This document shows positions 982-24,735 of a stretch of DNA of 64,000 nucleotides, one piece after another; the stretch's first letter is position 1; every line of letters starts with the position of its first letter. The notes beneath the pieces are model-generated. The model made no database searches, had not been told where the DNA came from, and saw only the letters and a list, made by a program, of their open reading frames with translations. The DNA comes from Nioella nitratireducens. Its GTDB lineage: Bacteria; Pseudomonadota; Alphaproteobacteria; Rhodobacterales; Rhodobacteraceae. The DNA is taken from assembly GCF_001879715.1 (NCBI RefSeq), contig NZ_MNBW01000004.1:1-64000 (forward strand), given 5' to 3'. The position numbers were made by a program, and so were the translations under genes.

Positions 982-982
982 C

Positions 983-5378: not shown

Positions 5379-5402
5379 ACGCACGGCCCGAAGGCCATGC
5401 GT
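5379..5402 (-). terminator. Intercistronic UUCG-capped hairpin after the binding-protein gene
   Basis: On the minus-strand transcript the bases read ACGCATGGCC-TTCG-GGCCGTGCGT. All ten positions can pair in RNA, counting one G-U pair, around a cUUCGg tetraloop. No U-tract follows, so full termination is unlikely. Such hairpins commonly follow binding-protein genes in ABC operons and protect or attenuate the message so that binding protein is made in excess of permease. The structure is seen; the role is inferred. Confidence 0.6.
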
Positions 5403-5428
5403 GTTTGGTATTGAAACGCCGCGTGGGG

Positions 5429-6750: not shown

Positions 6751-7806
6751 TTATGGCAGCCAACTCTCGTAGAGCGGGGCAGCCCTGCTCAGCGGCAACG
6801 ACACCCGTTGCCCTGTTCGCGCAGCTTCATAAACGGCGGTCACCAATTCGATGGACCGCCGTCCATCCTGCAACGTCACCTCTCGACCGCCGCGCCCCTC
6901 CAGCGCGTCGGCGATGGCGTCGAAATACCCGGCAAAGCCCGCCAGCGGGGCCTCAAGCCCGGCCAGCACCGCGTCGATGGCGGCCTGATCATGGGGCGCG
7001 CGGGCGGTGAAGGTCCACTGGTCTTCGGCCGGGGCATAAGGGGCGGTGCCGCTTTCGGCGGTGACCCCCTCGAAGGTAAAGCGCAGGCGGGTGCTGTCGG
7101 TGGCGGCGCCAAGCGTGATCGAGCTTGTCGAGAGCGCGCCGTTTTCATGCACCAGCAGGATCGCGCCGCAATCCTCTGTCTCGATCTCGTTCACGCGGGT
7201 CGCCGTGCTGGCCGACAGTTCGGATATCGGGCCAAAAACGCTGCACAGAAGGTCGTGATTGTGGATCGCATGGCCCAGAACAGCCCCGCCGGATTCCCCC
7301 GCCCATGTCCCGCGCCACGGGACCGCGTAATAGTCGGGGCCGCGGTTCCAATGGGTCTCAAGGCTTGCCGCAAAGGGCTTGCCCGCCAAGCCTGCGTCGA
7401 TCAGCGCCCGGATCTGCTGGGTGCCGGGGCCATAGCGGTATTGGAAGACCGGGAAGACCTGCTTGCCCGCTGCCTCGGCCACCGCGATGAGCGCATCGAC
7501 CTCGGCCAGCGACCGCACCAGCGGCTTTTCACAAACCACGTGCTTGCCCGCCTCCAGCGCCGCCTTGGACACCGGGAAATGCAAATGCGGCGGCAGGCAG
7601 ACGTCGATCAGGTCGATCGCGGGATCGGCCAGCACGGCGTCGAGGTCGGCGGTGATCGCAATCGCCGGATCGTCCCCCGCCACGGATTTCGCACGCTCGG
7701 GGTCCAGATCGCACAGGGTTGTCACGGCAAACCGGTCCGGCAAGGCGCGATAGCCCGCCAGATGCTGCGCGCCGATGCCGGTGCCGATGATGGCGACACG
7801 GATCAT
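6751..7806 (-). CDS. Gfo/Idh/MocA family oxidoreductase (third of three)
   Basis: NAD(P)-dependent sugar or cyclitol dehydrogenase-like protein, 351 residues. The Rossmann fingerprint is at the N-terminus (VAIIGTGIGAQHLAG), the family EKP motif is in VVCEKPLVRS at about residues 90-99, and a C-terminal beta-sheet domain follows. The start ATG at 7806 overlaps the stop of the preceding gene as ATGA and has GAAGGGGG upstream. Substrate specificity cannot be read from sequence. Being clustered with two relatives, an ABC importer and uxuA/kdgK, it probably oxidises or isomerises a uronide or its glycoside. It lies 53 bases upstream of the binding-protein gene. Confidence 0.85.
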   Translation of the reverse strand: MIRVAIIGTGIGAQHLAGYRALPDRFAVTTLCDLDPERAKSVAGDDPAIAITADLDAVLADPAIDLIDVCLPPHLHFPVSKAALEAGKHVVCEKPLVRSLAEVDALIAVAEAAGKQVFPVFQYRYGPGTQQIRALIDAGLAGKPFAASLETHWNRGPDYYAVPWRGTWAGESGGAVLGHAIHNHDLLCSVFGPISELSASTATRVNEIETEDCGAILLVHENGALSTSSITLGAATDSTRLRFTFEGVTAESGTAPYAPAEDQWTFTARAPHDQAAIDAVLAGLEAPLAGFAGYFDAIADALEGRGGREVTLQDGRRSIELVTAVYEAARTGQRVSLPLSRAAPLYESWLP

Positions 7807-8819
7807 GCGGCGCCCCCTTCCGCCATGGCCTGCGCCTTTAGCGCCAGTTCCATCACCTTGAAGGCATGGGCCTGCGGCATCGCGGTTTCCGTCCGGTTCA
7901 GAACATCCTGTGTCAGCCGCGCGAAGTAGGGCAGCCCGGCATCGGCGCAAGAGATCTTTTCGCAGCGCGTGCCATTTACCAGCACGAGGTGGTCGGTGCC
8001 CTCGGCCCCGCCCACATCGACATATTTCCGCAGTTCGATATAGCCCTCGGTGCCCAGGATGGTCAGCCGCCCGTCGCCCCATGTGGGCAGACCGTCCGGC
8101 GTGTACCAATCGACCCGGATATATCCGTGGCCGCTGTCAGAGCGCAGCGCCAGTTCCCCGAAATCCTGCAAGCCGGGATCGTCGGGATTGGCGAAATTTC
8201 CGACACTGGCCATGCTGACCTCGGCATCGGAAGAGCCGGTGAACAGCAGGAACTGGTCGATCTGGTGGCTGGCGATATCCACCAGCACCCCGCCATAGGC
8301 GTCACGGTCAAAGAACCAGTCGGGGCGTGACGGGCGGTTCAGCCGGTGCGGGCCAAGGCCCACGGTCTGCACCACGCGGCCAATGGCCCCCTCTGCCACC
8401 AGCTCTTCCGCGCGGGTGACGGCGGGCACTTCGAACCGTTCCGAGAAGTCGACCGACCAGATGCGACCGGTGCGCGCCGCGACCTCTTTGATCGCATCAA
8501 GCTGCGCCATCGTCGTGCAGCCGGGCTTGTCGACCATCACGTCCTTGCCCGCCTCCATCGCGGCGATGGCCAGATCGGCCCGGTCCCGCGGAATCGCGGA
8601 AATCAGGATCAAGTCCACCTCGGGGTCGTTCAGGATCTCGTCCTTGCTGGCTGCGCGTGGCACGTCGGGAAAGCGCTTCTCGAACCCGTCCAGCGTTTCG
8701 GGCGTGCCGTCCGTCCACCATTTGGAAAAGAAGGCCCCGGCCTCGACCATATTGGCGGCCATCCCGTAGATATGGCGGTGATCAATGCCAAGGGCGGCGA
8801 TGTTCAGCGGTCGGGTCAT
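7803..8819 (-). CDS. Gfo/Idh/MocA family oxidoreductase, divergent member (second of three)
   Basis: A 338-residue Gfo/Idh/MocA-like protein. The nucleotide-binding start is atypical (IAALGIDHRHIYGMAANM rather than GxGxxG), and the family EKP is replaced by DKP in MVDKPGCTTMAQ. A catalytic-domain segment GGVLVDIASHQIDQFLLFTG contains the conserved Asp/His pair. The start overlaps the previous stop by ATGA (8816-8819). The odd glycine-poor fingerprint suggests altered cofactor binding, perhaps a tightly bound NAD(H) or a glycosidase-like redox cycle; this is inference. It is coupled to its two relatives, so the three probably act in one pathway. Confidence 0.8.
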   Translation of the reverse strand: MTRPLNIAALGIDHRHIYGMAANMVEAGAFFSKWWTDGTPETLDGFEKRFPDVPRAASKDEILNDPEVDLILISAIPRDRADLAIAAMEAGKDVMVDKPGCTTMAQLDAIKEVAARTGRIWSVDFSERFEVPAVTRAEELVAEGAIGRVVQTVGLGPHRLNRPSRPDWFFDRDAYGGVLVDIASHQIDQFLLFTGSSDAEVSMASVGNFANPDDPGLQDFGELALRSDSGHGYIRVDWYTPDGLPTWGDGRLTILGTEGYIELRKYVDVGGAEGTDHLVLVNGTRCEKISCADAGLPYFARLTQDVLNRTETAMPQAHAFKVMELALKAQAMAEGGAA

Positions 8820-9859
8820 TGGGAAACGTCCATGATGCGCCCCTCTTTGGCAGAGGCGGCGATTGCGTCGATCAGGTGATGGGCAGCCAGCGCGTCGCGG
8901 CCAGAGGCCACGGGCGCGCGCCCTTCGTTCAGGGCAGCGGCGAAATCCTCGATGATCGCCTGGTGCCAGTCGTGGGTGAAGGCCATCGGATCGGCCCCGC
9001 CGCCGGTGGTGGCAGTCGCCCCGAAGGTCTCTTCGCGACCATCCCGCCAGCGCAGGGTCAGCACGCCCGAGCCCAGATGCAGGCTGGCCTTGTCGAAATG
9101 GAGCGTGATGGTCTCGGCCCCGCCCGGAAAGCTCGCGGTGCTGGCCACCAGAGACCCGACCGCGCCATTGGTAAAGCGCAGGCCCGCCGTGGCGAAATCT
9201 TCTGACTCCATCTGGTGGAACCGCGTGGTGGCAGCCATCGCCTGCACCTGCGAGACCGGCCCGGCGAGGCTGAGCGCGAGGTCGATCGTGTGGATCGCTT
9301 GGCTGATGAGCACTCCGCCGCCGTCACGAGCATAGGTGCCGCGGCCCGGCTCGTCGTAATAGGCCTGCTCGCGCCACCACGGCACGGTGATCTCAACCAG
9401 CCCGAGCGCGCCGAGCGTTCCAGAGGTCACAAGCCCTGCCGCTTTCAGTGACGCGGCCCGCATCCGATGCTGGAAGAAGATGCCAAGGCGCACGCCCGCG
9501 TCTTCGCAGATGCGCACGACCTCTTCCGCCTCTGCCGAGATCCGCCCCACAGGCTTTTCCAACAAGATATGCTTGCCCGCCTCGGCCAAGGGCCGCACCA
9601 ACGCGGCGCGGGCGTCGGGCGGCGTGGCGATCACAACCGCGTCCACCTCGGGATCGGCGGCAATGGCGGCGATGTCTGGGTAAACCTGCAACGGCGCCCC
9701 CTGTGCCGCGTCTGCAAAGGCGGCGGCGCTTTCGGGCCGCCGGGCAGCCACGCCTTTGAGCCGCACCTTTGGCGCCGCAGCCCGAAGCGCGGCCAGGTGG
9801 GTGCGGGCCACCATGCCCGTGCCCACCAGCACGCAGGTCAATATTTCGCTGTCAGCCAC
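8816..9859 (-). CDS. Gfo/Idh/MocA family oxidoreductase (first of three, operon leader)
   Basis: A 347-residue Rossmann-fold oxidoreductase with CVLVGTGMVARTHLAAL at the N-terminus, EKPVGRISAEAEEV around residues 98-111 and GGGVLISQAIHTIDLALSL, which carries the catalytic-domain His/Asp. The start is GTG at 9859, supported by GGGAGGG nine bases upstream; no ATG lies nearby. It is the first gene of the leftward operon and begins 42 bases beyond the nearer edge of operator 1, so it is under the divergent CCGGTATACCGG operator. Substrate unknown; uronate or uronide dehydrogenation is inferred from context. Confidence 0.85.
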   Translation of the reverse strand: MADSEILTCVLVGTGMVARTHLAALRAAAPKVRLKGVAARRPESAAAFADAAQGAPLQVYPDIAAIAADPEVDAVVIATPPDARAALVRPLAEAGKHILLEKPVGRISAEAEEVVRICEDAGVRLGIFFQHRMRAASLKAAGLVTSGTLGALGLVEITVPWWREQAYYDEPGRGTYARDGGGVLISQAIHTIDLALSLAGPVSQVQAMAATTRFHQMESEDFATAGLRFTNGAVGSLVASTASFPGGAETITLHFDKASLHLGSGVLTLRWRDGREETFGATATTGGGADPMAFTHDWHQAIIEDFAAALNEGRAPVASGRDALAAHHLIDAIAASAKEGRIMDVSQ

Positions 9860-9966: not shown

Positions 9967-10719
9967 ATGCCCATGGATGACGCCCCGAAGAGTCCCGACA
10001 AAATCGCCACGGCGGACGGCGAGCCGGGTTTTGCCGCTATCGCCTTCCCGCCGCTGGACCTGACCCGCCCTGCCGGGGAGCAAATCTTCGCGGCGCTGAA
10101 ATCCGCGATCCTGACCACGGAATTGCCGCCCGGCTGCCTGATCTCGGAAAACGAGATCGGCCAACGCTTCGGCGCCAGCCGCACCCCCGTGCGCGAGGCC
10201 TTTACACAACTGCGCACCGACGGGCTGATCGTGACCCGCCCAAGCCGGGGCAACTATGTCTCGCGCCTGTCCGAAGCGCGCATCCGCGAGGCGCAATTCA
10301 TCCGCGAAGCCCTGGAACTGGCCAATGTCACCCGTCTTTGCGAGCGGGGCCTGCCCGATGCGGTCATCGGTGAACTGACCGGCATTCTCGACATTCAGGG
10401 CCGCGCGGTGGCCGAGGGCGACACGCTGGGCTTTCAGGCGCAGGACGACCGATTTCACACCACCCTGGCCCGCGCCACGGGGTTCGAGAGGGCCGAAACC
10501 CTGCTGATCCGCGAAAAGGCGGCGCTGGACCGGCTGCGGGTGTTCTCGCTCGGCGACACCGATCACATGACGCGCCTTCTGGAAGAGCACCGCGCCATTC
10601 TGGACGCGATCCGTGGCCGCGACACCGACAGGGCGGTCGAGGCCATGCGGACGCATCTGCGCTCGATCCTCAGCGCGCTGTCCAGCCTGATCGCCGCACA
10701 TACCGATTTCTTCGAATAG
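9967..10719 (+). CDS. GntR-family repressor with FCD domain (UxuR/ExuR-like)
   Basis: Cytoplasmic DNA-binding regulator, 250 residues. A winged helix of the GntR type spans about residues 32-100 (ISENEIGQRFGASRTPVREAFTQLRTDGLI), followed by an all-helical FCD ligand domain (about 105-240) with metal-ligand candidates in DDRFHTTLARATG. An ATG at 9967 has GAAGGAG seven bases upstream; a second ATG is two codons on. It sits immediately next to two palindromes of UxuR type and upstream of uxaC. It most likely represses both divergent operons, with a uronate intermediate as inducer. Family assignment is firm; the ligand is inferred. Confidence 0.88.
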   Translation: MPMDDAPKSPDKIATADGEPGFAAIAFPPLDLTRPAGEQIFAALKSAILTTELPPGCLISENEIGQRFGASRTPVREAFTQLRTDGLIVTRPSRGNYVSRLSEARIREAQFIREALELANVTRLCERGLPDAVIGELTGILDIQGRAVAEGDTLGFQAQDDRFHTTLARATGFERAETLLIREKAALDRLRVFSLGDTDHMTRLLEEHRAILDAIRGRDTDRAVEAMRTHLRSILSALSSLIAAHTDFFE

Positions 10720-10740
10720 ACCCGGAAAGGACGGACCCGA

Positions 10741-12123
10741 ATGTCCCCCATCCAAGAGGCGGCCCTGTCCGGCCTTGCCCAAGACCTCTACGAGACCATC
10801 GCAGAACTGCCCATCGTCTCGCCCCACGGCCATTGTGACCCGCGTTGGTGGGCCGAGGACAGCGCCTTCCCCGATCCGGCGGAATTGCTGATCATCCCCG
10901 ATCACTACGTGTTCCGGATGCTCTATAGCCAGGGCGTTTCGCTGCGTGATCTCGGCATTGGCGTCGCCCGCGAAGACCGCGATCCGCGGGGCATCTTCCG
11001 GCTTTTCGCGCAGCATTGGGACAGGTTCCTCGGCACCCCCAGCCGGGGCTGGCTGGAGCACACGCTCTACAAGACGCTCCGGATCGAGGTGGCCCTGACG
11101 CCGGACACCGCCGATACCGTCTTTGACCAGATCGCCGCGCGTCTGGCCACGTCGGCCTTTCGCCCACGCGCCCTGTTCGAGTCCATGGGGCTCGAATGCC
11201 TCGCCACCACCGATGGCGCGCTCGACCCGCTCGCCGCGCATCAGGCAATCCGCGAGTCTGGCTGGTCCGGCAAGGTCATCCCCACCTTCCGCCCCGATGA
11301 CGTGCTGAACCCGGCCCGGTCGGGCCACGCGGACAATCTCGCCAGGCTTGGCGAGATGACCGGAGAGGACGTGAGCCGCTACGAGAGCTTTCTTGCCGCG
11401 CTGCGGACCCGCCGCGCCGCCTTCCGCGCGCTTGGGGCCACGGCAACCGACCATGACGTGCCCGACCTGATGACCCGCTGGCTCGACCCGGCCCAGATCC
11501 GCGCGCTGCATGACAAGGCGATTGCCGGGGCTTTGTCTGCCAGCGAAGGGCGCGCCTATTACGGGCACATGCTGGTCGAGATGGCCCAGATGTCGGCAGA
11601 GGACGGCATGGTCATGCAGATCCATGCGGGCAGCCGCCGGTCGACGAACCGCGCCCTGCTGGCGGAATTCGGCCCCGACATGGGCGCTGACATTCCCCAT
11701 GCGGTCGACTGGGTGGCGGGGATGGACGCGCTGCTCAACCGCGTCGGCAACGACCCGCGCCTGCGGGTGCTGCTGTTCACGCTGGATGAAGGCACCTATG
11801 CCCGCGAACTGGCCCCGATGGCGGGGCATTGGCCATGCCTGCGGCTTGGCCCCCCGTGGTGGTTCCATGACAGCCCGAATGGCATCCGGCGCTATTTCGA
11901 CCAGGTGGTGGAAAGTGCGGGCTACTGGAACCTTGCGGGCTTCAACGACGACACCCGCGCCTTCCTGTCGATCCCGGCACGTCACGATACGTGGCGGCGC
12001 GGTGTGGCGCTGCATCTGGCGGGACAAGTGGAGCGGGGCACCTTTGGACGCCGCGACGCCAAGCGCCTTGCGCCGCTGCTGGCGCGCGATCTGGCCAAGA
12101 TGGCCTACCGGCTGGAGGACTGA
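10741..12123 (+). CDS. uxaC: Uronate (glucuronate/galacturonate) isomerase
   Basis: Isomerises D-glucuronate to D-fructuronate (or galacturonate to tagaturonate), the first cytosolic step of the pathway. It has 460 residues, close to the usual 465-470. The amidohydrolase-fold metal motif is seen as PHGHCDPRWW (28-37), and the C-terminal half shows IHAGSRRSTNRALL, LGPPWWFHDSPNGIRRYFD and GFNDDTRAFLSIPARHD, all characteristic of UxaC. The gene starts 21 bases after the regulator with GGAAAGGA upstream. The fructuronate reductase-like gene follows three bases later, giving a compact operon. Confidence 0.95.
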   Translation: MSPIQEAALSGLAQDLYETIAELPIVSPHGHCDPRWWAEDSAFPDPAELLIIPDHYVFRMLYSQGVSLRDLGIGVAREDRDPRGIFRLFAQHWDRFLGTPSRGWLEHTLYKTLRIEVALTPDTADTVFDQIAARLATSAFRPRALFESMGLECLATTDGALDPLAAHQAIRESGWSGKVIPTFRPDDVLNPARSGHADNLARLGEMTGEDVSRYESFLAALRTRRAAFRALGATATDHDVPDLMTRWLDPAQIRALHDKAIAGALSASEGRAYYGHMLVEMAQMSAEDGMVMQIHAGSRRSTNRALLAEFGPDMGADIPHAVDWVAGMDALLNRVGNDPRLRVLLFTLDEGTYARELAPMAGHWPCLRLGPPWWFHDSPNGIRRYFDQVVESAGYWNLAGFNDDTRAFLSIPARHDTWRRGVALHLAGQVERGTFGRRDAKRLAPLLARDLAKMAYRLED

Positions 12124-12126
12124 GCC

Positions 12127-13455
12127 ATGAACCGTATCCTGCATCTCGGCTTCGGCAATTTTCACCGCGCCCATCAGGCGTTTTACACCGCCGCCGCCAA
12201 TGCGCTCGGCGAAAACTGGGCGATCACCGGCGTCGCCATGCGCCGCCCGGACCTGCGCGATGCACTGGCCGCGGGCGGATTTGCCTATACACTCGGGATT
12301 CGCGGCACGGATGGGTTGGAGGCGCGGCACATCGCCGTGCATGACCGGGTGCTGGTGGTGCCCGAAGACCCGCAGGCGGTGATCGACGCGATTGCCGACC
12401 CCGAGACCCATATCGTCAGCCTGACGGTGACCGAGAAGGGCTATCACCTGAACCCCGCCACCGGCGCGCCGGATCTGGACGGGGCGGCACTGGCCGCCGA
12501 TCTGGTGGCTCCGTTGCCGCAGACAGCCGTCGGCCTGATCGCCCACGGGCTGGCCAAGCGGGTGGCGGCCGGCGCGCCCGTCACGGTGCTGAGCTGCGAC
12601 AACATCTCGGGCAACGGGCACAAGTTGGCCCATGCGGTGCATGGCTTTGCCAAGGCCGCCGGGCTGGACATTGGCGATTTTCTTGCCACCCATGTCCGGT
12701 TTCCCGACAGCATGGTGGACCGGATCACCCCTGCCACCACCGACGGTATCCGCGCCGAGATTGCCGCCATCACCGGGAAGAACGAGCCGCAGCCCGTGCT
12801 GACCGAGGCGTTTTCCGAATGGATCATCGAAGACGATTTCGCCGGACCGCGCCCCGCGTGGGACAAGGTCGGCGTCGAGATCGTGCCCGATGTGGCCCCG
12901 TTCGAGATGCGCAAGCTGCGGCTGTTGAACGCTGCGCACAGCTATCTCGCCTATGCCGGACAACTGGCGGGGCACCGCTATGTCCACGAGGCGATCCGCG
13001 ATCCGCGCCTGCGCCCCATCGTGGAAGGTATCTGGGACGAAGCCGCCAGCACCCTGCCCGACGCAGTGGCCGACACAACGCCCGCCTACCGCACCGCGCT
13101 GCTTGACCGGTTCGAAGGGGCCGGGATGCGGCACGAGCTGGCGCAGATCGCGCAAGATGGCAGCCTGAAATTGCCGGTCCGTCTGGTTCCCGTCTGGCAC
13201 CTGCGCCGCGCCGCGGGCGACCTCGCCCCCAACGTGACCGAGGCGGTTGCGGCATGGCTGGCATTTGTGCGGCGTGAGGTCTTGGCCGGGCGCGCCCTTG
13301 CCGATCCAGCGGCAGGGCGGCTGGCCGGAATGGTGCGCGGGGCGGACGACACCGATGCCTTCTGCCGCGCGGGCTGTGCGTTGCTCGACATGGAGGAAGG
13401 CACAGCCGACTGGCTGGCTACCTTGGTGCGGGATGTGGATGCGCTCAGTCCCTGA
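12127..13455 (+). CDS. uxuB: Mannitol dehydrogenase-family protein, probable D-fructuronate reductase
   Basis: NAD-dependent polyol dehydrogenase family member of 442 residues. The N-terminus has the Rossmann signature LHLGFGNFHRAHQAFY (5-20), and the catalytic Lys-Asn-His set of long-chain polyol dehydrogenases is seen at K263, N268 and H271 (KLRLLNAAHSYLAY). Following uxaC by three bases and sharing the locus with uxuA, it most probably reduces fructuronate to mannonate (UxuB). Mannitol or another polyol oxidation is possible from family alone. Its 3' end overlaps the convergent alpha/beta hydrolase gene by 11 bases. Confidence 0.82.
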   Translation: MNRILHLGFGNFHRAHQAFYTAAANALGENWAITGVAMRRPDLRDALAAGGFAYTLGIRGTDGLEARHIAVHDRVLVVPEDPQAVIDAIADPETHIVSLTVTEKGYHLNPATGAPDLDGAALAADLVAPLPQTAVGLIAHGLAKRVAAGAPVTVLSCDNISGNGHKLAHAVHGFAKAAGLDIGDFLATHVRFPDSMVDRITPATTDGIRAEIAAITGKNEPQPVLTEAFSEWIIEDDFAGPRPAWDKVGVEIVPDVAPFEMRKLRLLNAAHSYLAYAGQLAGHRYVHEAIRDPRLRPIVEGIWDEAASTLPDAVADTTPAYRTALLDRFEGAGMRHELAQIAQDGSLKLPVRLVPVWHLRRAAGDLAPNVTEAVAAWLAFVRREVLAGRALADPAAGRLAGMVRGADDTDAFCRAGCALLDMEEGTADWLATLVRDVDALSP

Positions 13456-14341
13456 CATCGCCGAGCCTCCGGGTCAGGAAGGACAGAACCGCCTGCCGCA
13501 TCGCCGGGCTTTCGGCGTGGCCCAGGTCTTCTTCTACATGAAACTCCAGCTGATCGGGGGTGGCCGTGTAGGCCGCTTCCAGCGCGGCCCGCGCGGGGGC
13601 AAAGGCATGGGCGGGCGTGGACCAGTCCTGCATCCCGACGCAGATTTGCAACGCCCGCGGCGCGGCAAGCCCCGCGATTTGCCCCGTGGACCACCCCGGC
13701 AGCAACCCCGGCACGGTCATGTAGATCCCGTGCCCGTCATGCGCGGCCGTCGCCACCAGACGGTCGAGATCGGCAAAGGAACACAGCGCCGCCGCCGCGC
13801 GAACCCGGTCATCCAGCGCGGCAAGCCAGAAGGCATGGGTGCTGCCCATGGACAGGCCAAGCGCGCCAAGGCGATCCGCGTCGATCACCGGATGATCGGA
13901 CAGAAAGGACAGGCCCGCCGACAGTTCCGCCAGCATTTGCCCGAACAGCGTCGTGCCGCGCCACAGATGCGCCTTGGCCCGCGCGCTTTCGCACGGCTGC
14001 TGCCGGGTGCCGAAGGCGGGCATCTCGATTGACAACGCCGCAATGCCAAGACGGCACAGGTCGGGCGCGTATGGGCCAGTCAGGGCGGGTCGCCCCTCGG
14101 TCAGTTCCTCGCGCCCCATCTCGTAGCGGTTGCCATGGGCATGGCAATAGATCAGCGCGGGCACGGGGCCGGTTTCAGGGCGCAGGAAGGTGGCGGGAAT
14201 ACCCTCGCCATGCATGTCGATGCGCAGATCCTCCAGCACCCAATCGCCAAACGGGGCCTGCCCCACGACCTGCACGCTGTCGAACCGGGCCGCGCCAAGG
14301 CGGACCCCAAGCAGACGCTCCAGATCGGCGCGCCCGGCCAT
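13445..14341 (-). CDS. Alpha/beta-hydrolase at the end of the smo-like operon
   Basis: A 298-residue serine hydrolase of the dienelactone hydrolase/acetyl-xylan-esterase-like group. The nucleophile elbow is GLSMGS (about residues 161-166), an oxyanion-hole region is CHAHGNRYEMGRE, and the terminal catalytic His is probably in EDLGHAES. No signal peptide is present, so it acts in the cytoplasm. It starts only three bases after the flavin reductase stop and so is co-transcribed with the SmoA/B/C-like genes. It may deacylate an acylated sulfoquinovose glyceride or another ester before glycoside cleavage, but nothing in the sequence proves a substrate. Confidence 0.8.
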   Translation of the reverse strand: MAGRADLERLLGVRLGAARFDSVQVVGQAPFGDWVLEDLRIDMHGEGIPATFLRPETGPVPALIYCHAHGNRYEMGREELTEGRPALTGPYAPDLCRLGIAALSIEMPAFGTRQQPCESARAKAHLWRGTTLFGQMLAELSAGLSFLSDHPVIDADRLGALGLSMGSTHAFWLAALDDRVRAAAALCSFADLDRLVATAAHDGHGIYMTVPGLLPGWSTGQIAGLAAPRALQICVGMQDWSTPAHAFAPARAALEAAYTATPDQLEFHVEEDLGHAESPAMRQAVLSFLTRRLGDVRD

Positions 14342-14344
14342 GCC

Positions 14345-14854
14345 TCAGCCGTCCCCGCCGCAGGCGAAGCCGCCGAAACTGCCGCCCCAAAACAGAAGCG
14401 GATCGCCCTCGTGCAGCACCGCGCGGGTGACGCGGCCCACAAGGATGACATGATCGCCGCCGTCGTAATCGGCGTAGCGCTCGCATTCGAACCGCGCGAG
14501 ACAGCCGGTCAGCAGCGGCACGCCATGCGCGCCCTCTTCCCAGGCGGCCTCGTCAAACGCATGGGCGGATTTCGAGAACGCCCGGCAGAGCGGTTGCTGG
14601 TCGCTCGACAGCACATGGATGGCCATATGTTCGGCCTTGGCGAAGTGATGATAGCGGCTGGAGCCGCGCGACACGGACCAAAGAACCAGTGGCGGGTCGA
14701 GCGACACCGAGGAAAAGCTGTTCGCGGTGATCCCGACCGGACCGGCCTCGCCCTTGGTGGTGACGATGGTGACGCCCGTACCGAACCGCGACAGCGCGCC
14801 GCGCAGCGCTGCTGCATCGGACGGGTCGGGGGTTATGACGGATTGCATGCTCAT
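14345..14854 (-). CDS. smoA: Flavin reductase (SmoA/SsuE-functional partner, FMN-binding split barrel)
   Basis: Provides reduced FMN to the partner monooxygenase. The 169 residues show the HpaC/flavin-reductase pattern: GVTIVTTKG (about 26-34), GITANSFSSVSLDPPLVLWSV (38-58), then HFAKAEHMAIHVLS. The ATG at 14854 overlaps the upstream aldo/keto reductase stop as ATGA and has AGGAGG before it. A later ATG at 14848 is possible. Coupling to an SsuD-like monooxygenase and an aldo/keto reductase reproduces the smoA-smoB-smoC set known from Agrobacterium. The biochemical class is clear; the smo assignment rests on context. Confidence 0.75.
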   Translation of the reverse strand: MSMQSVITPDPSDAAALRGALSRFGTGVTIVTTKGEAGPVGITANSFSSVSLDPPLVLWSVSRGSSRYHHFAKAEHMAIHVLSSDQQPLCRAFSKSAHAFDEAAWEEGAHGVPLLTGCLARFECERYADYDGGDHVILVGRVTRAVLHEGDPLLFWGGSFGGFACGGDG

Positions 14855-15750
14855 GGCACCTCCTGTCCCAAGGCGGCGGTGTAGATCTCGAACCACGTTT
14901 CCCGGTCGAGCGAGACTTTGCAGGCGTCGGAAATGGCGCGGATGCGGGACAGGCTGTTGGTGCCCATCACCGGCAGCATCCCGACGGGATGGGCCAGCAG
15001 CCACGCCACGGCCACGGCGGTGGCGTCAACGCCCTGCTCTGTGCCTATCCGGGACAGCACGGCGTGGACGGCAGCGCCTTCGTCGGAAAACAGACGCCCG
15101 CCGCCAAGGGGCGACCACGCCATCGGGGCGATACCATCTTTTTGCATCCACGCGATATCGCCATTGGCAAAGGGTGCGTGGTGCAGAACGCTGGCTTCGA
15201 TCTGGTTGGTGCAAAGCGGGGTCGACATGGCGGATTGCAGCAGCGCCCAGTCATGCGGCTTGAAATTCGAGACGCCCACGGCGCGAACCTTGCCAGAGGC
15301 CACCAGCGCATCCAGCACGCCCCCCGTTTCGACATGGTCCATCAGCGGATCGGGCCGGTGGATCAGCAACAGGTCGATCCGATCGGTGTGCATGTTGGTC
15401 AGCGAGGCCTCGACCGAGGCCGTGATATGCGCAGCGCTGGTGTCGTAGTACTTCACACGACGGTCGGCATATTTCCCGATCGGCGCGACGATATCGCACT
15501 TAGTGACCAGTTCGACGGCATCGCGCAGGCCGGGGGCGGCCGCGAAAGCCGCACCGAGAACCTCTTCCGCGCCGTAGTCGCCGTAAATATCTGCCTGATC
15601 CAGCGTGGTGATCCCCTGATCCAGACAGGCGCCGATCTTGGCCTGCACATGGGCGGGCGAGGTGTCTGCATCATCGGCCACGCGCCACATGCCGTAGACC
15701 AGCCGCGACAGGCTGAGATCGGGGGTAAGGGAAACGCGCTCCATGCTCAT
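14851..15750 (-). CDS. smoB: Aldo/keto reductase, probable 6-oxo-glucose reductase (SmoB-like)
   Basis: NAD(P)H-dependent carbonyl reductase of 299 residues with the catalytic tetrad D51, Y56, K84 and H131 (TLDQADIYGDYG, LVTKCDI, LLLIHRPDP) and a C-terminal cofactor-binding stretch (VMGTNSLSRIRAI). It resembles the YdhF-type AKR subgroup. In the oxidative sulfoquinovose pathway SmoB reduces the 6-oxo-glucose made by the monooxygenase to glucose. The ATG at 15750 overlaps the monooxygenase stop by ATGA and has AGGAGA upstream. The operon position between monooxygenase and flavin reductase matches the smo order. An unrelated aldehyde reductase role cannot be excluded. Confidence 0.72.
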   Translation of the reverse strand: MSMERVSLTPDLSLSRLVYGMWRVADDADTSPAHVQAKIGACLDQGITTLDQADIYGDYGAEEVLGAAFAAAPGLRDAVELVTKCDIVAPIGKYADRRVKYYDTSAAHITASVEASLTNMHTDRIDLLLIHRPDPLMDHVETGGVLDALVASGKVRAVGVSNFKPHDWALLQSAMSTPLCTNQIEASVLHHAPFANGDIAWMQKDGIAPMAWSPLGGGRLFSDEGAAVHAVLSRIGTEQGVDATAVAVAWLLAHPVGMLPVMGTNSLSRIRAISDACKVSLDRETWFEIYTAALGQEVP

Positions 15751-16901
15751 CGACGCTCTCCTGCGGCCAGCGGGGTTTGCGGCGGCGTGCTCGGCACCCG
15801 GCCATAGGCCTCGGGCAGCGAGCAGGTTTTCAGATGCGGCATGACCCGTTGGCCGAAGCTCTGGCATTCATCCATGTGCGGGTAGCCCGAGAAGATGAAG
15901 GCACGAATGCCCATCTTCTTGTACTCTTCGATCTGGGTCAGGATCTGGTCGGTGGAGCCGACGAGTGCCGCGCCACAGCCCGACCGCGCGCGGCCAACGC
16001 CGGTCCACAGATGCGGTTCGATATAGCCGAACGTGTCGGCCAGTTCACGCGCCCGTGCCTGATGCGCCACGCCAAGCGAAATCGAGTCATGCGCCCGGTC
16101 GCGGATCAGTTGCCCGTATTCGTCGTCCAGTTTGGATACGAGATGGTCCGCGTAGTCCCGCGCCTCGGCCTCGGTATCGCGCACGATCACATGGACACGC
16201 AGACCGTAATCCAGCGTCCGCCCGTATTTCTCGGCCACGGCGTTCACCGCCTTCATCCGTTCTGCCAGTTGCTCTTTCGGTTCCGGCCACATCAGGTAGA
16301 CGTCGCAATGCTGGCCGCATAGCTCCAGCGCGGCGGGGGAATAGCCGCCGAAATAGAGCAGCGGGCCACCTGTCTGATAGGGCTTGGCCGGATCGGTCGT
16401 CAGACCCTCGAAATGATATACCTGACCTTGGTAATTGATCTCGTCCTGCGTCCACGCCTGCTTGAGAATCTCCACCACTTCACGCGACCGCTGGTAGCGC
16501 AACGCGCTTTCCGCGACCTCGCCGGGGAAGTCGGACGAGATGATGTTGACCGTCAGACGCCCCTTCAGCATGTGGTCCAGTGTGGCGATGGTACGGGCCA
16601 GCATGATCGGCTGCATCTCGCCGCAGCGCACGGCGGTCAGCATGTTGATGCGGTCGGTGATGGGGGCGCACCCGGCCACGAAACTCAACGTATCCTGCCC
16701 CACCTGATAGGAGGACGGGCACAGGATGTTGCGAAAGCCCTGCCGCTCGGCCTCTTGCAGAATGCCCGAGCAATGCTCCCAGCTTGACCGCAACGCGCCG
16801 TCGGGCACGCCGAGATACTCGTAATCGTCCGAGCACAGGGCCGCGAACCACGAAACCTCTGCCGCGTCCAGATCGGGCGACGTGATGGGGACGACTGTCA
16901 T
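15747..16901 (-). CDS. smoC: LLM-class flavin-dependent monooxygenase, probable sulfoquinovose monooxygenase (SmoC-like)
   Basis: A 384-residue bacterial-luciferase-fold enzyme clearly related to alkanesulfonate monooxygenase SsuD. Conserved blocks include GPLLYFGGYS (179-188), DVYLMWPEP (200-208), GLRVHVIVR with R235 and H237, LWTGVGRARSGCGAALVG (299-316) and the terminal FSGYPHMDE (338-346). SsuD-type enzymes cleave C-S bonds using FMNH2 and O2 and release sulfite. The N-terminus (about 1-45) is longer than in SsuD and may shape a sugar pocket. The ATG at 16901 has GGAGGA nine bases upstream. Linkage to an aldo/keto reductase, a flavin reductase, a GntR regulator and sugar genes points to sulfoquinovose rather than alkanesulfonates. 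Confidence 0.72.
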   Translation of the reverse strand: MTVVPITSPDLDAAEVSWFAALCSDDYEYLGVPDGALRSSWEHCSGILQEAERQGFRNILCPSSYQVGQDTLSFVAGCAPITDRINMLTAVRCGEMQPIMLARTIATLDHMLKGRLTVNIISSDFPGEVAESALRYQRSREVVEILKQAWTQDEINYQGQVYHFEGLTTDPAKPYQTGGPLLYFGGYSPAALELCGQHCDVYLMWPEPKEQLAERMKAVNAVAEKYGRTLDYGLRVHVIVRDTEAEARDYADHLVSKLDDEYGQLIRDRAHDSISLGVAHQARARELADTFGYIEPHLWTGVGRARSGCGAALVGSTDQILTQIEEYKKMGIRAFIFSGYPHMDECQSFGQRVMPHLKTCSLPEAYGRVPSTPPQTPLAAGERR

Positions 16902-16996
16902 GCTGGTGCTTCCTCCCAAAAAGCTAAATCTCCCTCTTGCGTATCACCGTCGCATATGTAGATCAATAATGTATCAATTTTCTGGAGTCGCCAATC
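16902..16996. promoter_or_regulatory. Divergent promoter region between smoC-like and GntR/UTRA genes
   Basis: This AT-richer 95-bp gap separates two divergent transcription units. GTATCA occurs at 16941-16946 and again at 16971-16976, exactly 30 bp apart, with TAGATCA (16959-16965) between them. These may be half-sites for the adjacent GntR regulator. No clean -35/-10 pair was identified. The arrangement is seen; operator function is inferred and weakly supported. Confidence 0.4.
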
Positions 16997-17710
16997 GTGC
17001 CCCCTCCCGCCAAACCCGCCGGTTCGCTGCCGGTCTATTTGCAGATCAGCGAAATGCTGACCCGTGACATTGCAGCCGGGCGCTATCTGGAGGGCGAGCG
17101 CTTTCCACCGGAACGCCGGATGGCCGCCGACCTGTCGATCTCGGTCGGCACCCTGCGCAAGGCGCTTGCCGAGCTTGAAAACCGGGGATTACTGGACCGC
17201 CGCCATGGGTCCGGCAACTATGTTCGGCCTGTGGCGACGCCCGCCGGGGTCTACGCCTTCTTCCGTATCGAGCTGAAGGGTGGCGGCGGTCTGCCAACGG
17301 CGAAAGTGCTCGACATCACCCGGATGCAAAAGCCCGCCGACCTGCCCGCTTTCGGTGCATCAATCGACGCGCACAGGATTCGCCGCCTGCGATTCCTCTC
17401 TGGAATTCCCGCCGTGCTTGAGGAAATCTGGCTCGACGGGGCCTATGCCAAGGCGCTCGACCCCGAAGCGGTGTCCGAGTCGCTCTACCTGCATTACCGC
17501 GAAGCCTTGGGCCTGCGCATCACCCGCGCCGAGGATCGCGTGGGTGTCGGCACCGTCCCCGTTTGGGCGCCCGACGCCTTTCCGCCACGCCCCGGCACGC
17601 CCTGTGGTCTGGTCGACCGGATCAGCCACACGCCCGACGGCAGCATCGCAGAAGTTTCACGCAACTGGTTCGACGCCGACACGGCGCGCCACGTCACCCG
17701 GATGAGGTAA
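16997..17710 (+). CDS. GntR-family regulator with UTRA domain
   Basis: A 237-residue HutC-type regulator. An N-terminal winged helix (about residues 13-80: LPVYLQISEMLTRDIAAGRY, FPPERRMAADLSISVGTLRKAL, RRHGSGNYV) is followed by a UTRA effector domain (about 95-235) with LEEIWLDGAYAKALD and a terminal EVSRNWFDADTARHVTRM. The start is GTG at 16997 with GGAG nine bases upstream. It is divergent from the monooxygenase operon and six bases ahead of the Gfo/Idh/MocA gene, so it likely controls both in response to a sugar or sugar phosphate, plausibly sulfoquinovose or its glycoside. Confidence 0.85.
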   Translation: MPPPAKPAGSLPVYLQISEMLTRDIAAGRYLEGERFPPERRMAADLSISVGTLRKALAELENRGLLDRRHGSGNYVRPVATPAGVYAFFRIELKGGGGLPTAKVLDITRMQKPADLPAFGASIDAHRIRRLRFLSGIPAVLEEIWLDGAYAKALDPEAVSESLYLHYREALGLRITRAEDRVGVGTVPVWAPDAFPPRPGTPCGLVDRISHTPDGSIAEVSRNWFDADTARHVTRMR

Positions 17711-17716
17711 CAGAAA

Positions 17717-18808
17717 ATGACCGCCACTTTGCGCTACGGGATCATCGGCTGCGGCATGATGGGACAAGAGCATATCCGCAATATCGCGCTGCTTGAGAAC
17801 GCCGAGGTCGCCGCCATACTGGAGCCGGATCCAGCCATGCGCGACGAGGCCGCCCGACTTGCCCCCGGCGCGGTCTTCTTCGATAGCATCGCAGAGCTTT
17901 TGGCCCTCGACGCCGTGAACGTGCTGCTGATCGTCTCGCCCAACCACCTGCATATCGGCCAGTTGGAAGAGATCGCCCGCATTCGCCCCCTGCCCGTTCT
18001 GGTTGAAAAACCGCTCTATACCGACCCGGCCGACGCGCCCCGGCTGGAGGCCTTTCGCGCCAGTTATCCGGCCCTGGTCTGGGTGGCGATGGAATACCGC
18101 TACATGCCGCCGATTGCCTCCTTCCTCGATCAGGCTGCTGCGACGACGGGAGGCATCAGGATGCTGACCATCCGCGAACACCGCTTTCCCTTCCTGCCGA
18201 AAGTCGGCGACTGGAACCGGTTCAACCGCAACACTGGCGGCACGCTGGTGGAAAAATGCTGCCATTTCTTCGACCTGATGCGGCTGGCCATCGGGGCCGA
18301 TCCGCTGCGCGTCATGGCCTCTGCCGGGCAATCCGTGAACCATCTCGACGAGGCCTATGACGGCGAGACCCCGGATATCTGGGACAACGCCTATGTCATC
18401 GTCGATTTTGCCAATGGCGCGCGAGCGATGCTGGACCTGTGCATGTTCGCCGAAGGGGCCCGCTATCAGGAGGAAATCAGCGCCGTCGGCCCCACCGGCA
18501 AGATCGAGGCGCTGGTGCCCGGCCCCGGCCGGTTCTGGCCCGACCACTTGGGTGCGCCGCCAGTGCCGAAACTGGTGGTCAGCCCGCGCGCGCCCAAAGG
18601 CCCCGAGGAACGCGACATCCCCGTCGATCCCGCGCTGTTGGCGGCGGGCGATCACAACGGGTCGACCTTCTACCAGCACCGGTTGTTCCAGCAGGCGGTC
18701 TTGGCTGGCGGGCAGCCGCAGGTCTCGCTCGGCGATGGCGATTGGGCGGTGCGGATGGGGATGGCAGCGCAGGAGTCGGCCCGAACCGGTCAGGCAGTCA
18801 CGCTTTGA
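17717..18808 (+). CDS. Gfo/Idh/MocA-fold protein, candidate NAD-dependent sulfoquinovosidase
   Basis: A 363-residue protein with a dinucleotide-binding N-terminus (YGIIGCGMMGQEHI, 6-19), the EKP motif in VLVEKPLYTD (about 95-104) and a C-terminal sheet domain. A basic/aromatic stretch (IREHRFPFLPKVGDWNRFNRNTGG) and VEKCCHFFDLMRL form the probable active site. It is cotranscribed with the UTRA regulator (6-base gap) and divergent from the SmoA/B/C-like genes. Known NAD-dependent sulfoquinovosidases (GH188) have this fold, and no GH31 sulfoquinovosidase is present nearby. That function is inference; an ordinary sugar dehydrogenase is the alternative. Confidence 0.8.
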   Translation: MTATLRYGIIGCGMMGQEHIRNIALLENAEVAAILEPDPAMRDEAARLAPGAVFFDSIAELLALDAVNVLLIVSPNHLHIGQLEEIARIRPLPVLVEKPLYTDPADAPRLEAFRASYPALVWVAMEYRYMPPIASFLDQAAATTGGIRMLTIREHRFPFLPKVGDWNRFNRNTGGTLVEKCCHFFDLMRLAIGADPLRVMASAGQSVNHLDEAYDGETPDIWDNAYVIVDFANGARAMLDLCMFAEGARYQEEISAVGPTGKIEALVPGPGRFWPDHLGAPPVPKLVVSPRAPKGPEERDIPVDPALLAAGDHNGSTFYQHRLFQQAVLAGGQPQVSLGDGDWAVRMGMAAQESARTGQAVTL

Positions 18809-19518: not shown

Positions 19519-20439
19519 CTACAGCACACCGGGCAAAAAGCGATAGGCCGCCCCCATCCGGTCCACCCGGCCCATGCCACCCCCGGTCAGGTGAAAGCCC
19601 ACGACCGGCATGTCATCGGCCACGATCCGGTCAAGCAGCGTCAACCGCGTGGACGCTGCGGTCGGCATGTCGTGGTCCGAGCCCGAGGGCATCTCGGGCG
19701 CCTCGAACCCCACGTGATGGTTGCCGATGGCGTCCCCGATGATCAGCGTGGGCGTCCCGCCTCCGTCGACAAGGAACGACATGTGCCCCGGCGTATGGCC
19801 CGGCGTCATCAATGCCGTCACCCCCGGCAGCACCGTGTCACCGTCGGCGAAGGTCTGCATCTGGTCGCCCATCATCTGCAACCGCCGCGCTGCGCCGACG
19901 GCAAAGGCCTGCCGCGCGGTGCCGATCGTGGACACCGTGTCGGGGTCGGTCCAATAGGCCAGTTCCCCGGCCCCCATGACATGCCGCGCCGCGTAAAAGA
20001 CCGGCTCGTCAAAATCGTCCAACACCCCCCAAAGGTGATCGGGATGGCCATGGGTGAACACCACGTCCGTCACCTCCTGCGGGGTTATCTCAAGCGCGTC
20101 GAGCGCGTCCAGCAGGCTGCCTGCCGTCGGCTGAAACGCCGGGCCCGATCCCGCGTCGAACAGCACCACACGCCCCTGCCCGCGCAGAAGTGTCACGTTA
20201 CAGGGCGGCGTCAGCTCCGTCGCGCCGGTCAGCCCGTGTCGGGCGAGGATCGGCGCCACCGCGTTCTCGGGCATCGGCCCAAGAATGAAATCGGCGGGCA
20301 GCACAAGATGACCGTCGCTCAACGTGTCGATCTGCCACTCACCCATCTGCATCGAGGCGTGCAGCCAACGCGGCATCAGCGCCGCCGCCCCGAGGCCCGC
20401 CGCCCCCGCCATCAGCATCCTGCGCGTGATCGTGCTCAT
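19519..20439 (-). CDS. Tat/Sec-exported MBL-fold metallo-hydrolase
   Basis: A 306-residue metallo-beta-lactamase-fold protein. The N-terminus STITRRMLMAGAAGLGAAALM is a likely Tat signal (twin arginine followed by a hydrophobic stretch). The metal site is visible as FTHGHPDHLWG (HxHxDH), with further ligands in MTPGHTPGHMS and IIGDAIGNHHVG. The ATG at 20439 has GGGGAGA seven bases upstream. It follows hemA, and sox loci of Paracoccus also carry an MBL protein (SoxH), so a role with periplasmic sulfur or thiol intermediates is conceivable. Lactonase activity is another option. Confidence 0.82.
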   Translation of the reverse strand: MSTITRRMLMAGAAGLGAAALMPRWLHASMQMGEWQIDTLSDGHLVLPADFILGPMPENAVAPILARHGLTGATELTPPCNVTLLRGQGRVVLFDAGSGPAFQPTAGSLLDALDALEITPQEVTDVVFTHGHPDHLWGVLDDFDEPVFYAARHVMGAGELAYWTDPDTVSTIGTARQAFAVGAARRLQMMGDQMQTFADGDTVLPGVTALMTPGHTPGHMSFLVDGGGTPTLIIGDAIGNHHVGFEAPEMPSGSDHDMPTAASTRLTLLDRIVADDMPVVGFHLTGGGMGRVDRMGAAYRFLPGVL

Positions 20440-20598
20440 CTCATGTCTCCCCTTGTGACCGGAGCCATCGCCCCTTCTTGGTTGTGAAAATACCCCGGGC
20501 GGGTCGTTCATCGGGCGGCACTGGGCCAAGCCCAATGGGCAACGGGGGCTGGTCCCCCGCCGGTCGCAGCCCAAAGGCGGCGACGCCACCCTATCCGT

Positions 20599-22373: not shown

Positions 22374-23426
22374 TCATTCCTGCGTGCGCAGGTATTCGAT
22401 GATCGCCGCGCGGTCGTCCGCATCATCGAGGCCCCGGTAGGTCATGCGCGTGCCGTTCATGTACGCGCGCGGGTTTTCGAGGAAGGCGTCGATCTCTTCT
22501 GGCGTCCAGATCAAGCCGGAGTCGCCCGCGTCCGTCATCGGCCCGGAATAGCGGAACCCGTCCACAGCCCCGGCATGGCGCCCGACGACCCCGTTCAGTA
22601 TTGGCCCGACCCGGTTGCGGGCATCTTCGCCAACCTGGTGACAGGCGGCACATTGCCGGAAGAGCCTTTCGCCCTCGGCGGCAAGCTCCATGTCGATGGC
22701 GTTTTCGTCCACGGCGGGCTCTTGCGTGGCCGGTTCCTCGGCGGCGGCCGTTTCGGTCCCGGCAGCAACGGCGGCGCGGGCCTCGCGGGCGGCGGCATCC
22801 TCGGGCGTCACGTCCAGAATGTTGGCCCGCATCACGATTTCCACGCTGTCGGCGCAGTTCGTCATGCAGACGTCGTGCGGCGGAAACAGCGGGCTTTCTT
22901 CCCGGTCATCCATGAAGAACCCGTCCTCGTTTGGCAGGTGGATGTCGGTGAAATTCTCGTTCGACAGAACGAACTGGTCGTCCAGCACCACATCGTTCAT
23001 GTAAAGCAGGAAGGCCGTGATCGCATAAACCTCGTCCGGTTCCAGCGATTGTGCATCGCCGAAGGGCATGGCGCGGTGGACATAGTCCCACACGGTCGAG
23101 AGATAGGGCCAATAGGAGCCGATGGTCTTGAGCGGATCGTCCGAGGACAACGACCCCTGCCCGCCCGCCAGCGGCGGCCAGCGGCCGGCCCCCTCGGCGA
23201 AACCGCCGTGACAGCTGGCGCAGCGTTCAAGGAAAATATCCTCGCCCTCCAGCACCGATCCCGAACCTTCCGGCAGGCCAAGCCCGTCGGGGCGCACGTC
23301 GATGTCCCATGCGGCCACCTCTTCGGGCAGCGCTTCGCGCCCCAGCCCGTAGGTTTGCGCCTGTGCCACGGCCCCGAGACCGGCGACGGTGGCGGCGGTC
23401 AGCAGAAGCTTAAGCGATTTCGACAT
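22374..23426 (-). CDS. soxD: SoxD, diheme c-type cytochrome of sulfane dehydrogenase
   Basis: Electron-accepting subunit of the periplasmic SoxCD complex, 350 residues. A Sec signal peptide (MSKSLKLLLTAATVAGLGAVAQA) is followed by two c-heme sites, CASCH (69-73) and CAACH (259-263), joined by a region with an extra cysteine pair CMTNC (187-191) and an Ala/Glu-rich linker (about 210-245). The ATG at 23426 has GGGAG eight bases before it and overlaps the soxC 3' end by 17 bases. The two-domain layout matches SoxD of Paracoccus. These symbols refer to thiosulfate oxidation, not to sarcosine oxidase genes at 46-52 kb. Confidence 0.93.
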   Translation of the reverse strand: MSKSLKLLLTAATVAGLGAVAQAQTYGLGREALPEEVAAWDIDVRPDGLGLPEGSGSVLEGEDIFLERCASCHGGFAEGAGRWPPLAGGQGSLSSDDPLKTIGSYWPYLSTVWDYVHRAMPFGDAQSLEPDEVYAITAFLLYMNDVVLDDQFVLSNENFTDIHLPNEDGFFMDDREESPLFPPHDVCMTNCADSVEIVMRANILDVTPEDAAAREARAAVAAGTETAAAEEPATQEPAVDENAIDMELAAEGERLFRQCAACHQVGEDARNRVGPILNGVVGRHAGAVDGFRYSGPMTDAGDSGLIWTPEEIDAFLENPRAYMNGTRMTYRGLDDADDRAAIIEYLRTQE

Positions 23427-24726: not shown

Positions 24727-24735
24727 CCCTTGGCC

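Follow-up and report, generated by a model that had tools for sequence, protein, structure and literature searches.

The window analysed here, a stretch of 64,000 nucleotides from Nioella nitratireducens (contig NZ_MNBW01000004.1, positions 1 to 64,000), carries a compact gene cluster that would act on sulfoquinovose (SQ), the sugar of the plant sulfolipid. On the minus strand lie smoC (15747–16901), encoding a predicted FMNH2-dependent SQ monooxygenase of the luciferase fold, smoB (14851–15750), for a putative 6-oxo-glucose reductase of the aldo/keto reductase type, and smoA (14345–14854), for a flavin reductase. Two true ATGA overlaps, 15750–15747 (smoC/smoB) and 14854–14851 (smoB/smoA), link the three genes. 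A GntR/UTRA regulator gene (16997–17710, plus strand; Pfam GntR and UTRA) diverges from smoCBA and is followed on its own strand by a Gfo/Idh/MocA gene, sqgA (17717–18808), while a direct repeat, ATCAAT-N5-ATCAAT (16962–16979, plus strand), is located between smoC and gntR. An alpha/beta hydrolase gene (13445–14341), co-directional with smoCBA, starts three bases past the smoA stop; its product showed a weak Peptidase_S9 match below the Pfam cut-off and gave a mean pLDDT of 38 when folded without an alignment. The layout in the original prediction, with flavin reductase, aldo/keto reductase and monooxygenase genes joined by ATGA overlaps and a divergent GntR/UTRA gene, was present in every feature. 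No RNA families at gathering cut-offs and no tRNAs were found in the window.

The order smoA-smoB-smoC with divergent gntR-sqgA recurred in 30 four-kilobase loci (the window and its 29 best relatives), with smoA undetected in three of them (L006, L016 and L024); matches to one query translation labelled alaS, which contained nine stops, were disregarded. Across 105 larger loci of relatives, tblastn detected smoB in 101, smoA in 94, sqgA in 102 and the GntR/UTRA gene in 102, a few of the misses falling at stretch or contig ends. Since this gene order recurs in relatives, the arrangement in the window is not due to chance. Within the family, smoC was present in 165 of 394 genomes.

The 15747–16901 product matched the PDB chains 7oh2 and 7olf, which we take to be SmoC, with 721 and 712 bits (79.4% and 77.8% identity), and the next chain, 7jv3, with 201 bits. 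Xaviernesmea (Rhizobium) oryzae encodes the 7oh2 sequence with 100% identity, with genes for SmoB, SmoA, a GntR protein and a GH31 glycosidase as neighbours, and the assignment of 7oh2 as SmoC is supported by this adjacency. When the monooxygenase was placed in a tree with SmoC and SsuD sequences, the check that had been proposed for it, it grouped with the SmoC chains on their side of a 100/100 branch. SfnG was left out of this final tree; the first tree, which included it, had a very long branch and gave 91/98 for the SmoC side. The monooxygenase is thus predicted to be orthologous to SmoC of the sulfo-SMO pathway. SsuD alkanesulfonate monooxygenases have family and fold in common with it but differ in sequence (33–37% identity to four SsuD-side entries) and in their position on the opposite side of the branch. 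A plain SsuD-type alkanesulfonate system scavenging sulfur is extremely unlikely, for although the monooxygenase scores best in NCBIfam against alkanesulfonate monooxygenase models (251 and 248 bits), both scores are less than half of the cut-offs (518 and 510; 250.8 against the equivalog cut-off of 518.2), and both the grouping with SmoC and the SmoB and GH188 partners in the cluster argue against it.

The aldo/keto reductase encoded at 14851–15750 had been regarded as SmoB, in agreement with its best matches, 7bbz and 7bby (436 and 435 bits, next match 229), which are presumably solved SmoB structures, and it is probably a SmoB orthologue. The partner flavin reductase is predicted to be SmoA from its Flavin_Reduct domain (Pfam, 2.7e-40), its ATGA overlap with smoB and its conserved position in the operon; no solved SmoA chain for comparison was evident among the PDB matches.

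The sqgA gene lay within the 13445–18808 module of the original prediction, where it was left unnamed. Its product matched 8zn9, 8qc2 and 8qc3 with 545, 376 and 374 bits, followed by 59 bits for the next chain, and shared 51% identity with 8qc2 over 359 positions. All eight GH188 active-site residues checked, taken from an excerpt of PMC10755693, are kept: K98, Y127, R156 and L160 correspond to reference K107, Y136, R166 and L170, and K162, E179, H183 and H313 to reference K172, E189, H193 and H321, thereby including the sulfonate triad Arg166, Leu170 and Lys172 as well as the catalytic residues. The Glu163 of that paper is offset by one position from a conserved Glu in the SqgA alignment. The sulfoquinovosidase of this cluster, of GH31 or GH188 type in sulfo-SMO systems, would accordingly be an NAD+-dependent GH188 enzyme, and no difference was evident between SqgA and the GH188 sulfoquinovosidases 8qc2, 8qc3 and 8zn9 as described in an excerpt of PMC11465081.

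The locus is very probably a sulfo-SMO operon converting SQ to sulfite and glucose. SqgA would hydrolyse SQ-glycerol to SQ through transient NAD+ oxidation at C3, and SmoA would provide the reduced flavin with which SmoC, together with O2, would break the C–S bond of SQ to form sulfite and 6-oxo-glucose, the latter being turned into glucose by SmoB. What the sequences show is homology, synteny, retained residues and a conserved repeat; activity, repression and inducer are inferred. The degradation of SQ by oxidative desulfurization, as originally claimed for this locus, is supported by the SmoC grouping, the SmoB match and a GH188 protein with intact sulfonate-binding residues.

The sulfo-SMO pathway was reportedly the subject of a PNAS paper in 2022. 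Excerpts of PMC9594981 and PMC12890257 attribute this pathway (also sulfo-ASMO) to SmoABC of Agrobacterium and SquD-SquF of Novosphingobium, and the latter excerpt counts SQ among nature's most abundant organosulfur compounds. The window shares with these systems an operon in which a GntR gene accompanies those for a flavin reductase, an aldo/keto reductase and an SQ monooxygenase, and with the Agrobacterium loci also the same repeat preceding smoC. In contrast, GH188 takes the place of the GH31 found in the sulfo-SMO clusters of L225 and L254, and the binding protein of the Agrobacterium importer (L254, L259 and L262) showed no detectable likeness to that of the window at E 1e-8. In a Roseobacter-clade sulfo-SMO cluster (Kaur 2023, excerpt of PMC10755693), smoA-smoB-smoC occurs with divergent gntR-sqgA as in the window; the same excerpt gives GH188 as near-universal in marine Roseobacter sulfo-SMO clusters and proposes Roseobacter bacteria as contributors to SQ turnover. 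The cluster in the window is a Roseobacter-type sulfo-SMO cluster, already published and with known enzymes, and the additions made here are a candidate operator and a comparison of importer types. The literature searched, with two main papers on these clusters outside that search, contained no description of either this operator or an SQ-linked ABC importer, and a search on SQ with Roseobacter and TRAP transporter returned nothing.

ATCAAT-N5-ATCAAT is the sole match within three mismatches in the window, is conserved in 101 smoC-gntR intergenic regions and is near-invariant in the family. The exact repeat occurred in 103 of the 394 genomes, at 105 sites, 95 of which lie at most 200 bases from a smoC end, against one match for the reversed pattern used as a control. 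Among 80 named, mostly rhizobial loci outside the set used for building the matrix, 79 had the repeat by smoC and none had the reversed control. Palindromes in the smoC-gntR gap were also considered, but their excess over shuffles was modest (for 7-base arms lacking a spacer, 36 of 101 versus 15), and the conserved element is the direct repeat. It is proposed as the operator of the GntR/UTRA protein, which would bind in the gap separating smoCBA from the divergent gntR-sqgA and probably repress the two units as long as no SQ-related inducer is available. In this role, the repeat would make SQ regulons predictable from sequence.

Beyond the hydrolase gene, the window contains an ABC/Gfo module. 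Its minus strand encodes an ABC ATPase with two permeases (2219–5339; Pfam ABC_tran and BPD_transp_1 twice), an ABC sugar-binding protein (5429–6697; SBP_bac_1), forming a candidate SQ or SQ-glycerol importer, and three Gfo/Idh/MocA oxidoreductases (gfo3, gfo2 and gfo1, 6751–9859; Pfam), whose PDB matches included no GH188 chains. The plus strand encodes a GntR/FCD regulator (9967–10719; Pfam GntR and FCD), followed by a glucuronate isomerase and a fructuronate reductase-like member of the mannitol dehydrogenase family (10741–13455; NCBIfam PRK02925 above its cut-off, DArabDhDalD and PRK15037 below theirs). With a mannonate dehydratase (983–2182, minus strand; NCBIfam uxuA, above cut-off) and a KDG kinase-like protein (40–993, minus strand; KdgK model, below cut-off), these other genes of the module point to hexuronate use. 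Such a near-complete hexuronate gene set close to smo, along with oxidoreductases of the Gfo family and a hydrolase potentially able to open a lactone, would suit a route in which part of the 6-oxo-glucose is oxidised to glucuronate and catabolised via isomerase, reductase, dehydratase and KDG kinase, besides or instead of reduction by SmoB. This route is nevertheless very unlikely, considering that smoB is present, that the scanned genes included no recognisable aldehyde dehydrogenase gene, that the glucuronate isomerase and reductase occur in only two of four such module loci, and that Roseibaca L302 combines ABC and smo genes without these hexuronate genes among its matches.

Whereas the smo core of the originally predicted module stood, its hydrolase goes more with the ABC/Gfo genes. 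Among 36 hydrolase-bearing genomes, gfo2 lay within 15 kb in 16 (nine of them without smoC nearby) and smoC within 16 kb in nine, the smoC count covering all but two of the 36. Because gfo2 neighbours the hydrolase more often than smoC does, the hydrolase was set outside the SMO core, and its membership there was dropped as the main reading. The hydrolase and the three Gfo proteins, all predicted enzymes only, appear to travel with the ABC module. In 27 of 83 genomes, gfo2 occurred without smoC (E ≤ 1e-100).

In the Ruegeria sp. THAF33 plasmid cluster, TRAP importer genes follow smoA, where the window has the hydrolase and then the ABC/Gfo module. The 98 comparator loci comprised 68 with TRAP only, nine with ABC and/or Gfo only, 21 with neither and none with both (Fisher p 9e-6, kinship ignored); six of the 105 loci had been selected because a Gfo or hydrolase gene lies nearby, and a kinship-aware pair test could draw on three pairs on supported branches, a number insufficient for significance. 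TRAP genes occurred in 21 of the 80 named loci and both importer types in none. At E ≤ 1e-60, smo-type DctP was absent genome-wide from all 12 genomes with the ABC/Gfo arrangement, was not found in the window's own genome, and was present in all six TRAP genomes, one being the source of the query. Roseibaca L302 has smoC-smoB-abcS-abcP1-abcP2-abcATP-gntR-sqgA on one strand, and relatives of the window's binding protein, 58% identical, lie inside the smo operons of L302 and L304, that of L302 being sister to the window's binding-protein group (98/96).

It is fairly probable that the ABC importer beside smo imports SQ or SQ-glycerol, taking over the job that TRAP performs in most compared relatives. 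That the ABC/Gfo/hexuronate module is instead an unrelated sugar system, with the SQ importer elsewhere in the genome, is possible though rather doubtful. The glucuronate isomerase, mannonate dehydratase and KDG kinase-like genes, the module's own GntR/FCD regulator, the missing repeat at its promoters in the window (none within three mismatches), twelve module loci with no smoC in the stretch (L137–L148) and the 21 smo loci with neither importer type nearby speak for such independence. Against it stand the complete lack of co-occurrence with TRAP genes in the 98 loci; the same ABC family in or next to smo clusters of named rhizobia and Roseibaca, in stretches that carry no Gfo gene, some of these labels (L170, L304) depending on short contigs; the repeated intermingling of smo-linked and unlinked binding proteins on the tree; and repeat-like sites upstream of ABC importer genes in L133, L134 and L137, the L137 site scoring 18.7, below the lowest training site (19.9).

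Import by the ABC system would fit into a broader reading, offered tentatively and at somewhat less than an even chance, in which TRAP and an ABC family hitherto not linked to SQ repeatedly replaced each other as the SQ importer across these bacteria. The ABC importer of this lineage would have arrived together with the hydrolase and the three Gfo oxidoreductases, which would extend the range of the operon beyond SQ-glycerol to further head groups of sulfolipids or uronolipids, and the operator would mark importer operons, including that of Agrobacterium, and reach sulfite handling and FMN synthesis in single relatives. The importer comparison yields a directly testable claim on which transporters carry SQ. 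Sox genes were also considered as part of the smo system and rejected: a search up to 12 kb from smoC in 105 loci, many of them extending no further than 9–10 kb, gave no soxB, soxC or soxD. In L148, a Gfo module without smo genes is located near soxBCD.

On the minus strand at the left of the window lie a KDG kinase-like gene (40-993), a mannonate dehydratase gene (983-2182), an ABC sugar importer (2219-6697) and genes for three Gfo/Idh/MocA oxidoreductases (6751-9859), followed on the plus strand by genes for a GntR/FCD regulator, glucuronate isomerase and a mannitol-dehydrogenase-family reductase (9967-13455). From 16901 downward, smoC (15747-16901), smoB (14851-15750), smoA (14345-14854) and then an alpha/beta hydrolase gene (13445-14341) occupy the minus strand, divergent from a plus-strand gntR of the GntR/UTRA type (16997-17710) and a further Gfo/Idh/MocA gene (17717-18808). 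The two ATGA overlaps of the original prediction are real, and 3 bases separate the smoA stop from the start of the hydrolase gene, whose product has no clear family match. The best matches of the three Gfo proteins are uncharacterised oxidoreductases, with no GH188 chain among the PDB matches listed.

Searched against all PDB sequences, the window monooxygenase matched 7oh2 (721 bits) and 7olf (712), both of which we take to be SmoC, and then 7jv3 (201). The aldo/keto reductase matched 7bbz (436 bits; next protein 229), which together with 7bby is presumably SmoB. These four PDB records carry the names "Alkanesulfonate monooxygenase", "Methanesulfonate sulfonatase" and "Aryl-alcohol dehydrogenase". 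The assignment of 7oh2 is supported by Xaviernesmea oryzae, which encodes its sequence (residues 1-384) at 100%; adjoining it there are matches to smoA and smoB together with genes for a GntR regulator and a GH31 glycosidase. As originally proposed, the window protein fell with SmoC rather than SsuD in a 15-row tree (branch 100/100), beside its relatives, 7oh2, 7olf and a Novosphingobium protein on a long branch of unsure placement; the opposite side held 7jv3, two proteins annotated as SsuD and one Paracoccus protein that lacks annotation.

The 17717-18808 product, which the original prediction enclosed in its coordinates but left unnamed, is recognised here as the sulfoquinovosidase SqgA (GH188) by its PDB matches 8zn9 (545 bits), 8qc2 (376) and 8qc3 (374), after which scores drop to 59. 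The sulfoquinovose (SQ) contacts of ArSqgA are described in PMC10755693, with a numbering at a constant offset of 13 from 8qc2. Lys107, Tyr136, Arg166, Leu170, Lys172, Glu189, His193 and His321 are all conserved in the window protein (8/8), and the printed Glu163 sits one position away from a conserved Glu in the alignment. That paper also gives GH188 as nearly universal in marine Roseobacter sulfo-SMO clusters, so the core of the finding is already a described kind. In Ruegeria sp. THAF33, an annotated plasmid has the gene order of the window, with a SmoC identity of 83.9%; this points to, but does not prove, an origin of the window in that clade. It is well supported that the locus is a sulfo-SMO cluster of the described type. 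Judging from the enzyme families, SqgA would free SQ, SmoA and SmoC would remove sulfite and SmoB would give back glucose, while the GntR/UTRA protein probably represses from a direct repeat beside smoC. The parts worth following are this putative operator and the proposed exchange of importers.

SmoC (E <= 1e-100) is present in 165 of 394 Rhodobacteraceae genomes, the window's own counted, and its surroundings were read in 105 of the 164 others; six loci (L131-L136) were chosen for a nearby gfo2 or hydrolase gene, and the rest were taken down a ranked list. Ninety-eight loci extend 6 kb or more on the side of smoA. Of these, 68 had two or more TRAP genes but lacked the ABC/Gfo module, 9 carried the module (at least two Gfo or at least three ABC genes) without TRAP, 21 had neither and none had both (Fisher p 9e-6, kinship ignored). 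Two extra module loci, L131 and L134, have short flanks. Across whole genomes, the smo-type binding protein DctP (E <= 1e-60) was absent from 12/12 ABC and/or Gfo genomes, including the window's own, and from 6/6 genomes with neither importer, and was found in 6/6 TRAP genomes, one being the source of the query. On a quick 101-row SmoC tree the module label required 7 changes (gains or losses), with supported branches forcing 3 of these, and a kinship-aware pair test yielded 3 pairs, too few to reach significance. The gene gfo2 was present in 83 genomes, and smoC accompanied it in 56 of these against 35 expected (p 1e-7, kinship ignored); the remaining 27 lacked smoC, so the Gfo genes are not confined to SQ users. 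One relative (L137; G144 C44:157000-176900) has the full ABC/Gfo/hexuronate/hydrolase module with no smo nearby, and its hydrolase match contains one in-frame TAG.

The 80 named loci that come closest to 7oh2 include 21 with TRAP genes, none of which combines them with the ABC family of the window. In Roseibaca sp. Y0-43 (L302), one strand reads smoC-smoB-binding protein-two permeases-ATPase-gntR-sqgA, and L304 shows the beginning of this order as far as its contig end; in nine rhizobial loci (L236-L240, L242, L243, L246, L270), window-type ABC genes lie directly past the smo genes. A 29-row binding-protein tree placed L302 and L304 as sister to the window's group (98/96). On it, loci with smo and Gfo, smo without Gfo and Gfo without smo were mixed (10 changes, minimum 2), "without Gfo" meaning none within the stretch read, which is short for L170 and L304. 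With the window binding protein (5429-6697) as query, no match was found at E 1e-8 in Agrobacterium L254, L259 and L262, whose importer therefore belongs to another ABC family. The PDB matches of the window binding protein were weak. The 7oh2-related loci and this tree moved our estimate from slightly below even to a modest leaning towards the ABC importer as a candidate for the uptake of SQ or SQ-glycerol.

The direct repeat (core ATCAAT-N5-ATCAAT, 16962-16979) was found in all 101 smoC-gntR intergenic regions read, the window included, with 9 of 22 columns invariant; this putative operator is 61 bases away from the start of smoC on one side and 18 from that of gntR on the other. Its exact form, ATCAATNNTGTATCAATT, gave 105 sites in 103 of the 394 genomes against one match for the reversed pattern; 95 were no more than 200 bases away from a smoC end, 5 lay elsewhere and 5 in genomes without a printed smoC position. 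A matrix built on the 101 sites (training scores 19.9-39.5) gave 106 matches at a score of at least 17 in 119 loci and none for the reversed control, 102 being close to smoC, which is circular since the same sites trained it. In the 80 named loci, outside the training set, a site stood by smoC in 79, with 23 more sites and again no reversed match. A second conserved block, CTTGCGTAnCA (16936-16946), lies upstream of smoC in most of 25 printed intergenic regions and is perhaps part of the promoter.

Several sites elsewhere precede importer or regulator genes. In G127 (L194) gntR is displaced, and the exact site upstream of it, also a matrix match, is 734 bases away from smoC; in G336 one stands before a smo-type TRAP dctQ-dctM pair (L222, C53:32900-36900), smoC being on another contig, and in G249 one precedes a MocR-type regulator gene. 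Matrix matches were found 198 bases from abcS, the binding-protein gene, in L133 (26.3), between gntR and the hydrolase-ABC-Gfo genes in L134 (22.0) and 107 bases from abcS in L137 (18.7, against the training minimum of 19.9), with no smo nearby. Roughly 0.9 kb from smoC, L254 has another operator-like repeat (at 8032), with counterparts in similar positions in 22 others of the 80 named loci; in the four Agrobacterium loci inspected, the gene that it stands before encodes the ABC ATPase. L254, L259, L260 and L262, near kin and not independent, have the extra site between gntR and an ABC ATPase gene at ~6790, with permease and GH31 glycosidase genes also on the ATPase side in L254. No operator-like site within 3 mismatches is present at the ABC and Gfo promoters of the window itself, and the window's genome has one other 3-mismatch site, equal to control level. 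Co-regulation of ABC genes with smo is therefore suggested by these motifs for the relatives only.

In genome G372, one exact site (L219, C1:747300-751300) lies between tauE, adjoined by xsc, and a gene for a molybdopterin oxidoreductase, presumably a SoeA-like sulfite oxidiser; its top NCBIfam model is PhsA, under the cut-off, and the window's genome encodes a protein 79% identical to it. This site possibly ties the export and oxidation of sulfite to the use of SQ. Another, seen in this one genome (L220, C2:685200-689200), directly precedes the riboflavin synthesis genes ribBA-ribH and would fit the FMN demand of SmoA and SmoC.

About 4 kb past the smo cluster, soxD, soxC, soxB and soxA lie at 22374-27380. 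Sulfur-oxidation proteins could thus encounter the sulfite released from SQ, but no soxB, soxC or soxD turned up close to smo in the 105 loci read from relatives. Between the smo and sox genes, 19519-20589 encodes a metallo-beta-lactamase-fold protein, for which the AHL lactonase AidB is the top NCBIfam model, at less than half of that model's cut-off.
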